The position numbers and the translations under genes were made by a program. From an uncultured Pontibacter sp. (GTDB lineage Bacteria; Bacteroidota; Bacteroidia; Cytophagales; Hymenobacteraceae), in assembly GCA_947499125.1 (NCBI GenBank), contig CANMMP010000001.1, positions 682,001 through 746,000 of the forward strand: a stretch of 64,000 bases of DNA, written 5' to 3'. The notes under the pieces are model-generated. The model was not told where the DNA came from. It was given only the letters and a program-made list of their open reading frames with translations, and did no database searches. This document shows positions 56,393 to 58,015 of this stretch, piece by piece; the stretch's first letter is position 1; each line of letters opens with the position of its first letter.

Positions 56393-56536
56393 TGCGTGTT
56401 TATCCCTCGCTCGCCTCTGGCGAGTGTGAGGTATTGGGTGGCGTCCCGCCACGAGTTTTGCCAGATATAGTCAAAGCGGCCAGAAGCCGAAAGATAGCAC
56501 ACATCCCGAAAGCGTTCGGGACGTGCGCTTTTAGTA
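56393..56536. repeat. cluster of small inverted repeats (minor island E)
   Basis: Three short hairpins follow each other: TCGCCTCTGGCGA (56409-56421), GTGGCGTCCCGCCAC (56438-56453) and CCCGAAAGCGTTCGGG (56506-56521). They lie between convergent gene ends. The pattern resembles dispersed intergenic repeats but shares no module with islands A to D. Confidence 0.5.
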
Positions 56537-56565: not shown

Positions 56566-56895
56566 TTACTCTTCTATCGCATCTATCTTGGCAGCAACTA
56601 TAAAATCGTTTTCAGAGAGGCCGTCGATAGCGTGCGTCCAGAGCTCAACTATAACTTTACCGTACGAGATGTGCAGGTCCGGATGGTGGGCTTCTTCCTC
56701 TGCGATATCCCCCACCTTATTTGCAAACCCCATGGCTGCGACAAAATCAGGGAATAGGAATTCTTTCCGGATCATTTTCTCGTCTACTACATCCCAGTTT
56801 GTTTTGAGCTGGCAGCTGTAGTTCTCAATATCATCGCCTTTAATTACAGGAACACCTCCTTCGCAGGGCACGCATTTTTTATTTTCTAATTCCAT
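56566..56895 (-). CDS. phhB: pterin-4a-carbinolamine dehydratase
   Basis: This 109-residue enzyme dehydrates the hydroxypterin produced by phenylalanine hydroxylase so that tetrahydrobiopterin can be recycled. The family block EEEAHHPDLHISYGKVIVELWTHAIDGLSENDFIVAAKID is complete, with the catalytic His residues. It starts 11 bases after the phhA stop on the same strand, forming a phhA-phhB operon. Confidence 0.93.
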   Translation of the reverse strand: MELENKKCVPCEGGVPVIKGDDIENYSCQLKTNWDVVDEKMIRKEFLFPDFVAAMGFANKVGDIAEEEAHHPDLHISYGKVIVELWTHAIDGLSENDFIVAAKIDAIEE

Positions 56896-56906
56896 GGGTT
56901 TATAGT

Positions 56907-57695
56907 TTAGATAAGTTCTAATTGTGCCAGTTTTGCATTCAGTTTTGCTTTAATTGCATCTACCGAATCGAGTAACTGGTCAAAGGAGTCAATTACAAAG
57001 TACCTGTCCTGGAAAGTATCTTTACGGTAAGGTGTATCCAGGATCTGATCGACGTTGTAAGCGAAGTGCTGCGGCTCGTCGCTCAGGCTATACTTTGTTT
57101 CGCCCACAGAACTTAAAATACCGGCACCGTAAATACGCAGCTCATCATCCTCTCTTATCAGGCCAAACTCAATTGTAAACCAGTAAATGCGCGATAACAG
57201 ATCAACTGCGACTGGGTTATCTGCATATTCGTGTCCGATCTGGCTGAGTACCTGCAAAAATTCAGTAACCTTCTTATTTGTAAGTAACGGTACGTGTCCA
57301 AAAACATCATGAAACATATCCGGCTCTTCCAGGTAATCGAGTTCGCTTAATTTTCGCAGCCAGGTTGTTGCCGGAAACTTCTGGTTAGCCATCAGCTCAA
57401 AAAATAAGGCATCATCCACAATACCTTCTACAGCCACTAACTGCCAGCCGGTTATAGGTTTAAGTATAGCATTTACGGGTACAAAATCAGGTATCTCCTC
57501 CTGTTTAAAATCAACTTCTTTCAACCCTTTCAAAAATTCCTTTGTAGCGGCACTAGGCAGGTTATGTATCTGTCTTTCATATAAAAGTTGCCAAACCTGC
57601 TGGTCCTCGTCGGTATAGTTGTTATACACCTGCTGCATATCTTTCAGGGTCGGAATGTGTCTTTTCGTTTCAGGCATTGTCGTTTTACTTTCCAT
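56907..57695 (-). CDS. phhA: phenylalanine 4-monooxygenase
   Basis: This 262-residue iron enzyme hydroxylates phenylalanine to tyrosine with tetrahydropterin and oxygen. The iron ligands are His129, His134 (FHDVFGHVPLL) and Glu176 (WFTIEFGL). There is no ACT regulatory domain, as in other bacterial forms. The start is the ATG at 57695, with an alternative Met at residue 7. It is preceded at 57724-57865 by a leader with a Tyr-rich small frame and a terminator, which implies attenuation of expression by tyrosine supply. Confidence 0.95.
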   Translation of the reverse strand: MESKTTMPETKRHIPTLKDMQQVYNNYTDEDQQVWQLLYERQIHNLPSAATKEFLKGLKEVDFKQEEIPDFVPVNAILKPITGWQLVAVEGIVDDALFFELMANQKFPATTWLRKLSELDYLEEPDMFHDVFGHVPLLTNKKVTEFLQVLSQIGHEYADNPVAVDLLSRIYWFTIEFGLIREDDELRIYGAGILSSVGETKYSLSDEPQHFAYNVDQILDTPYRKDTFQDRYFVIDSFDQLLDSVDAIKAKLNAKLAQLELI

Positions 57696-57723: not shown

Positions 57724-57758
57724 AAAAAAAGCCTGGTCCGTTTTGGAACCAGGCTTTT
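57724..57758 (-). terminator. leader terminator of the phhA-phhB operon
   Basis: On the minus strand GCCTGGTTCC pairs with GGACCAGGC (one bulged base, loop AAAAC), followed by seven T. It lies 28 bases upstream of the phhA ATG, downstream of the small Tyr-rich frame, so it controls read-through into phhA. Confidence 0.85.
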
Positions 57759-57815
57759 ATATGCTATAGGTATAAATTACATACTTAAGAACACACGCAT
57801 CCTACTCCAAAACGG
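57738..57815 (-). promoter_or_regulatory. predicted antiterminator pairing of the phhA leader
   Basis: CCGTTTTGGA (minus strand, 57815-57806, in leader codons 17-20) is perfectly complementary over 10 bases to TCCAAAACGG (57747-57738), which is the end of the terminator's first arm, its loop and the start of the second arm. Pairing would prevent terminator formation. Confidence 0.75.
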
Positions 57816-57865
57816 CGGCTTTGGTGATAGTAGTAATAATAATATGCGTTGTTCATCAAATTCAT
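57785..57865 (-). CDS. leader peptide with six consecutive Tyr codons (attenuator)
   Basis: A 26-codon frame starts with ATG at 57865 (a second in-frame ATG is at 57856) and ends with TAA at 57785. The peptide starts MNLMNNA, then has six Tyr in a row (codons 8-13: TAT TAT TAT TAC TAC TAT, bases 57844-57827), then HQSRRFGVGCVCS. A terminator follows about 27 bases after the stop and a 10-base antiterminator segment overlaps codons 17-20. This is the layout of ribosome-stalling attenuators: low charged tRNA-Tyr stalls the ribosome in the Tyr run and lets phhA, which makes tyrosine, be transcribed. I find no exact promoter match upstream. Confidence 0.75.
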   Translation of the reverse strand: MNLMNNAYYYYYYHQSRRFGVGCVCS

Positions 57866-58015
57866 GGCTGCTAAATACGATATTATAGTATTTAAAAACC
57901 AACTTTTCGTATTTTTTTATTTTATAAGTTTGATCAAATCCCTCTAAACCAGCCTGATAAACTAAATCAGAATGATGGTATAATTCTGAAATCATACTTA
58001 GACACAAGAAAACCA

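Follow-up and report, generated by a model that had tools for sequence, protein, structure and literature searches.

A probable tyrosine-codon attenuator ahead of the phenylalanine hydroxylase gene phhA in Pontibacter and its distribution in the class Bacteroidia

How is phenylalanine hydroxylase controlled in a genome where a short frame with a run of Tyr codons and an intrinsic terminator lie between the presumed promoter region and the gene? The window, by which we mean the whole 64,000-nucleotide stretch of DNA that was analyzed, belongs to an uncultured Pontibacter sp. whose genome comprises 3.98 Mb in 16 contigs and is 99.98% complete. On its minus strand, the order is 26-codon leader, antiterminator arm, intrinsic terminator, and phhA-phhB. 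From the sequence and its comparison with relatives, we consider it highly probable that this leader attenuates transcription of phhA-phhB by a ribosome-mediated mechanism responsive to charged tRNA-Tyr. The parts of the locus are as follows.

57872-57902, minus strand: candidate promoter, proposed by analogy with relatives: TTG (57902-57900), 20 nt, CGTATTTA (57879-57872), 6 nt, and the leader ATG
57785-57865, minus strand: leader ORF of 26 codons plus stop, translation MNLMNNAYYYYYYHQSRRFGVGCVCS, with equivalent frames in relatives
57827-57844, minus strand: run of six Tyr codons, read in the sequence and proposed as the sensor
57818-57824, minus strand: region 1 (CCAAAGC), predicted by folding to form a protector hairpin (-6.9 kcal/mol) with 57813-57807
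57806-57815, minus strand: region 2, antiterminator arm CCGTTTTGGA, perfect complement of region 3
57738-57747, minus strand: region 3, TCCAAAACGG, partner of region 2, in the loop and top of the terminator
57724-57758, minus strand: intrinsic terminator, hairpin 57758-57727 plus T run, from folding and shuffles
56907-57695, minus strand: phhA, phenylalanine 4-monooxygenase, 262 aa (Pfam Biopterin_H, 2.2e-48)
56566-56895, minus strand: phhB, pterin-4a-carbinolamine dehydratase, 109 aa (Pfam Pterin_4a, 7.2e-29)

The phhA product scores over the cut-off for NCBIfam NF008877 and TIGR01267, and for phhB the NCBIfam equivalogs score below their own cut-offs. The first-pass annotation had described a 26-codon minus-strand frame (57865-57785) with six consecutive Tyr codons, a segment (57815-57806) perfectly complementary to a second one (57747-57738), and a rho-independent terminator at 57758-57724 located 28 bases ahead of phhA, and the coordinates and readings of all of these were borne out. 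The terminator consists of a 13-bp stem formed by 57758-57746 and 57739-57727, a loop of 6 nt, and a run of T; it folds at -19.7 kcal/mol with a z of -6.3 against shuffles, and 28 nt separate its end from the phhA start at 57695. It does contain the second complementary segment, as had been claimed, with the nuance that this segment is mainly the hairpin loop and top and not the base. The 211-nt region as a whole folds at -61.1 kcal/mol (shuffle mean, -37.9; z, -5.1). The window thereby has the short leader ORF rich in Tyr codons and the terminator between the leader and the first gene that are expected of an attenuator. The codon run, 11 nt ahead of the arm, is also placed so that a stalled ribosome, with nominal edges, would cover region 1 and free region 2.

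From this arrangement we infer that the leader is translated, that ribosomes stall in it, and that read-through changes with tyrosine. Transcription would begin near the leader ATG. With plentiful charged tRNA-Tyr, the ribosome would pass the Tyr codons, and region 2 would be covered or folded onto region 1; with region 2 sequestered, the terminator would form and transcription would end before phhA. With scarce charged tRNA-Tyr, the ribosome would stall in the Tyr run. When its A site is on the last Tyr codon, the nominal front edge would be at about 57817, so that region 1 (57824-57818) would be covered and region 2 would be free to pair with 57747-57738 once that stretch is made. No terminator would then form, phhA-phhB would be transcribed, and tyrosine would be produced from phenylalanine.

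Folding predictions were made for this scheme. In nascent RNA extending to 57738 with a ribosome on any of Tyr1 to Tyr6, the antiterminator formed with 10 of 10 pairs, and in the full transcript it was the minimum-energy state only with stalls at Tyr4 and Tyr5. The full transcript without a ribosome had protector and terminator in its fold. The minimum-energy fold of nascent RNA without a ribosome also favored the antiterminator, and termination would therefore need an early protector or kinetics outside the model. The late stop codon of the leader, which had been raised as a caveat, proved typical of the group: among the 56 loci with a Tyr leader described below, the stop lies past the arm in most cases (median, 18.5 nt; interquartile range [IQR], 9 to 26.5), and by the same measure the distance is 13 nt in the window. 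A ribosome at the stop may thus leave region 2 uncovered, in which case the protector hairpin would be needed. This hairpin is present in the window (p 0.12) and reached p<=0.05 in 13 of 43 loci, with a median p of 0.12, which points weakly to its presence in relatives.

A run of Tyr codons is not in itself remarkable in this genome. Five consecutive TAY codons are found in the phhA leader and at one other place only, a frame without an ATG and without a terminator by the rule used, and the TAY run alone is not rarer than its control, the reversed pattern also giving 3 matches. When the same genome was scanned for five Tyr or His codons in succession, 36 matches were returned, equal to the backward control; 30 of them were opened as loci and one more as L066, with the terminator criterion applied only to frames of <120 codons between stops. 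Among the places examined, only the phhA leader has an ATG, a frame of <40 codons, and a terminator. What is distinctive at phhA is the combination of run, start codon, terminator, and gene.

Comparison with relatives carries the main argument. Searches for phhA gave matches in 182 of 200 genomes of the family (matches of any strength), 89 of 148 of the order, 67 of 247 of the class, and 84 of 247 of the phylum. The first set of loci consisted of 148 upstream regions, hydroxylase paralogues included and the weakest matches of the searches left out; 60 of these were fetched stretches, and L031, L032, and L064-L066 were dropped. A leader was scored as a frame of 8 to 65 codons that ends near a terminator and has at least four Tyr within 12 codons. 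By this rule, 56 of the 148 regions carry a Tyr leader with a terminator, two of which (L051 and L070) look doubtful. The same rule gave 39 regions for Leu, 22 each for Ala and Ile, and 0 to 10 for each remaining amino acid; in frames that precede a terminator ahead of phhA, clusters of Tyr are thus more frequent than those of any other amino acid. When the sequence upstream of the terminator was shuffled, on average 0.8 and at most 3 of 107 loci passed, and the antisense control gave 1. Terminators by the rule used were found at 107 of the 148 first-set loci and at 51 of 55 further loci of the family. The strict rule was failed by 92 of the 148 hydroxylase upstream regions; 41 regions had no terminator by the criteria used.

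In the 200 family genomes, 82 of the 91 close phhA loci (those with E up to 5.1e-81) carry the Tyr leader and terminator, 32 of 36 in the first set and 50 of 55 in the further set. The failures L007, L008, L016, and L027 have three or four Tyr or a terminator missed by the rule, and L236 has a Tyr frame with no nearby terminator by the rule. L223, L225, L229, and L230 have neither a Tyr leader nor a terminator, taking the gene start as annotated. By eye, L007, L008, L016, and L027 and the mixed Tyr/His leaders L037, L040, L041, and L047 are attenuator-like; they were left uncounted. In other orders of the class, 9 of 26 phhA loci pass (L127, L129, L142, L145, L148, and L150-L153), and the class-level loci with a leader come from families f41, f56, f57, f58, f65, f70, and f74. 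The 21 loci from other classes of the phylum (L182-L187 and L190-L204) have no frame with four Tyr. Among named genomes, a Marivirga MAG (L033) and Nafulsella turpanensis (L034) carry the leader. Since many hydroxylase genes in the order are without it, the trait is patchy there, and loci from related genomes are not independent of each other in any of these counts. Conservation of the Tyr run, one of the checks proposed beforehand, was found before most close family phhA genes and extends to several further families in the class.

Four named relatives of the window phhA (56907-57695) were found, the top-scoring being that of Pontibacter sp. E15-1 (L031), with 71% identity, and the partial phhA of Fulvivirga aurantia (L032) has 74% identity across residues 46 to 262. 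Identity is 71 to 74% to G115 and G012 (L002 and L003) and F. aurantia (L032) and mostly 53 to 58% to the phhA genes of other genomes in its own genus, and the window gene is perhaps a separate gene lineage or a horizontal transfer. The sequences GTGGCGGGACGCCAC and CGCCAGAGGCGAGCGAGG follow phhB in the window (56405-56460, minus strand) and precede phhA in Pontibacter sp. E15-1 (L002/L031); they are a possible dispersed repeat.

A conserved Tyr-rich frame could be kept for its product, in which case it would encode a functional small protein and the terminator would be its ordinary stop. A start codon with a Tyr-cluster frame is indeed present in many genomes, some leaders are alike over their whole length within genera, and peTrpL is a known leader peptide with an additional function in trans (described in PMC7298713). 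Between families, however, the peptides differ outside the Tyr cluster, and a small protein would leave the pairing of each leader with its cognate terminator unaccounted for. The conserved RNA after the run is, moreover, read in another frame in L003, and we regard the small-protein explanation as very improbable.

The attenuator reading predicts just such a cognate pairing. For each of the 56 loci, the stretch from the last Tyr codon to the hairpin was paired with the 5' arm and loop of the hairpin. In 26 of the 56 loci, including the window, this pairing was better than in dinucleotide shuffles (p<=0.05); for the window, 5 of 200 shuffles were equally good. In the 30 other loci, which include 12 of the 14 long two-cluster leaders of Pontibacter relatives, the test was not significant. 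The distance from the last Tyr codon to the start of the arm has a median of 13 nt (IQR, 9 to 16). Among 36 representatives, hand-picked to reduce redundancy, the summed cognate pairing energy was -507.9 versus a permuted mean of -391.6 (standard deviation, 16.1), a value reached in 0 of 20,000 permutations. When terminators were swapped, 7 of 35 foreign ones paired with the window leader as well as its own. The letters change while the pairing is kept, as seen for GUUUUGGA with UCCAAAAC in the window, GUUUCGGAA with UUCCGAAAC in L002, GCUCGGAAA with UUUCCGAGC in L042, and GGAACCGG with CCGGUUCC in L152, and the pair U57809-A57744 of the window is C-G in L003. L003 conserves the RNA that follows the Tyr run, yet reads the arm in a different frame than the window does, which indicates that the RNA is kept rather than the peptide. 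Arm pairing, permutations, and folds together point to an antiterminator that excludes the terminator, with 30 of 56 single loci not significant. The complementarity, which the first-pass annotation had proposed to check for compensating base pairs, is thus maintained by compensating changes, and these changes, together with the conserved Tyr run in relatives, support its reading of the phhA leader as a Tyr-run attenuator. A Tyr attenuator of phhA is in this way well supported by comparison.

Some leaders depart from the simple pattern. Long leaders with two Tyr clusters occur in Pontibacter relatives (L012, L014, L018-L020, L022, L024-L026, L028-L030, L125, and L126), most of them with a GGCAATCA stretch and a conserved upstream part. 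Of these first-set leaders (n=14), only L014 and L028 were significant in the arm test. In a wider search run without a shuffle control, a longer pairing that takes in sequence ahead of the hairpin was visible on inspection in about 8 of the 14, such as GCGCUCUCUCAGGCAAUCAG with CUGAUACAACUGAAGCAGAGCGA in L126 and AUCACU with AGUGAU in L028, and the remaining ones have other pairings.

The leaders of family f19 (L037, L040, L041, and L047) mix Tyr and His codons, as in MNPTPRTYVHHSYHFLQ of L041, with fewer than four Tyr, and in L040, L041, and L047 the sequence GGAATAGG or GGGATAGG lies opposite CCTATTCC of the terminator. A second conserved leader, this one without a Tyr run, precedes hydroxylase paralogues in genus g5 of the same family as the window (L105, L106, L107, L108, and L114). 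In L114 it reads MMNQTAKCFCLNIRPVVDGVGLYCRYGS, and the hydroxylases downstream are 38 to 44% identical. L105, L107, L108, and L114 have a GGAGTCGGGCT-like stretch opposite AGCCCGACTCC of the terminator, some with mismatches or G-U pairs, and this Tyr-less leader is a possible attenuator.

A structured leader with a terminator would also suit a T-box, a tyrosine riboswitch, or another leader-RNA switch, in which the Tyr codons would be incidental. The Tyr clusters are, however, far above chance, with the arm at a similar distance after them, and the 13 matches in Rfam with an E of up to 5 included no T-box or riboswitch. The window leader is also short by T-box standards. We find control by such a switch extremely unlikely. 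The Rfam leader families that were matched all scored below their gathering thresholds (Thr_leader, 28.1 bits versus 55; Leu_leader, 22.1 versus 50; Phe_leader, 18.6 versus 55), and since even the best of them falls short to this extent, the phhA leader belongs to no Rfam leader family.

If the leader is an attenuator, its signal could mainly be phenylalanine or the general translation rate and not tRNA-Tyr. The enzyme consumes phenylalanine, and there is a precedent in the AroR leader of Corynebacterium glutamicum, which contains Phe-Tyr-Phe and, in the account of PMC11802643, responds to Phe and not to Tyr. Against this, the 12-codon windows of the 36 representatives contain 2.5% Phe and 41.4% Tyr, the latter value being inflated as the windows were picked for Tyr, and the only Phe codon of the window leader lies inside the antiterminator arm. 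This makes Phe or the translation rate a highly unlikely main signal, and we return to charged tRNA-Tyr as the input.

A promoter so close to the leader ATG is suggested by relatives. The -7 box of Flavobacterium psychrophilum is given as TAnnTTTG at -12 to -5 (PMC9723704). Exact Bacteroidota -7 boxes, searched for 3 to 9 nt before the start, were present in 20 of the 56 loci at distances of 4 to 8 nt, and none was seen before the 254 remaining ATGs of the same upstream regions (0/254). A TTG is found 22 to 25 nt ahead of up to 11 of 21 boxes. A box matched in L001 lies inside the leader and was rejected as the L001 promoter. The spacing of the exact boxes places the transcription start at or a few bases from the ATG in those loci and suggests a nearly leaderless transcript. 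By comparison, only about 3.7% of 5' untranslated regions in Bacteroides thetaiotaomicron are reported to be <10 nt (PMC7366714). The earlier caveat that the window has no exact promoter match holds, with exact boxes present in some relatives: the window box CGTATTTA is a poor match to TAnnTTTG, with three mismatches at the six fixed positions, and the window promoter is for this reason not established and TTG-N20-CGTATTTA-N6-ATG a candidate.

Attenuators of amino acid operons are textbook knowledge, with a general scheme for the enteric his, thr, leu, phe, and trp operons. The phhA leader is like these in having a codon run of the regulated amino acid, a terminator, a mutually exclusive antiterminator, and a biosynthetic gene downstream; it is unlike them in that it would sense tyrosine, that the gene encodes a pterin-dependent hydroxylase, and that no Rfam leader family is reached. 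Accounts of his attenuation are given in PMC3896937 and of trp and phe attenuation in PMC11802643. The trpL system of Sinorhizobium meliloti, as presented in PMC7298713, shares codon-run attenuation and has a transcript that starts at the leader ATG, but it reads Trp and not Tyr and is from another phylum, and the leaderless start of the phhA leader is proposed from the boxes of relatives. AroR, ahead of C. glutamicum aroF, has a Tyr codon in a leader before an aromatic pathway gene, and it differs from the phhA leader in its Phe-Tyr-Phe and its described response to Phe limitation rather than Tyr (PMC11802643). In F. psychrophilum, of the same phylum, candidate leader peptides precede amino acid operons, and the structure of 5' regions has led to a suspicion of attenuation; structured elements of this kind are named for pheA and hisG, and the section on these candidates, unlike the case made here, names neither phhA nor tyrosine (PMC9723704). 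Our literature search, conducted mostly among papers outside subscription, found no attenuator described for tyrosine alone or for phhA. Given that leader-peptide attenuation is already suspected in Bacteroidota (PMC9723704) and that a leaderless leader ORF is described for S. meliloti trpL (PMC7298713), the kind of control is known, and it is the tyrosine and phhA member and its breadth that appear to be new. A Tyr attenuator of phhA is ordinary in principle and apparently new in its object.

Such an attenuator makes sense if phhA makes the amino acid that is sensed. No prephenate dehydrogenase (PF02153) match was obtained in the window genome, against 14 of 14 control genomes, and PhhA is therefore probably its tyrosine route, so that the downstream gene would make the sensed amino acid. 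In a sample of 50 genomes of the genus, the window genome included, all 8 genomes without phhA have PF02153 over the cut-off, and 23 of the 42 with phhA do not, 5 of these 23 matching below it. Elsewhere in the class, 25 of 26 phhA-bearing genomes have no PF02153 over the cut-off, 4 with a weaker match; 17 of the 26 are in the quality tally. The leader-bearing genomes G115 and G012 do have PF02153. Of the 89 genomes with phhA in the order sample, 55 also match PF02153 (4 with scores under the cut-off), and PhhA is hence not generally the sole tyrosine route. G001 and G007, of genus g2 of the family, have neither a phhA nor a PF02153 match.

Bacterial PhhA is often regarded as a step in the breakdown of phenylalanine. 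A switch that responds to Tyr starvation points to phhA making tyrosine here, and we infer that PhhA is used in this direction in the cell. This agrees with genetic data for Echinicola vietnamensis, which, like those for Dyella japonica, support tyrosine synthesis by phenylalanine hydroxylase as summarized for GapMind (PMC7311316). The released terminated leader RNA and the Tyr-rich peptide might also act in trans. In Bacteroidia genomes that lack prephenate dehydrogenase, the leader is an easily scored mark for annotating the synthesis of tyrosine. At slightly less than even confidence, we propose that a Tyr attenuator with a nearly leaderless ORF may be an old and common form of phhA control in the class Bacteroidia, in lineages that make tyrosine by phenylalanine hydroxylation, either in place of prephenate dehydrogenase or in addition to it.
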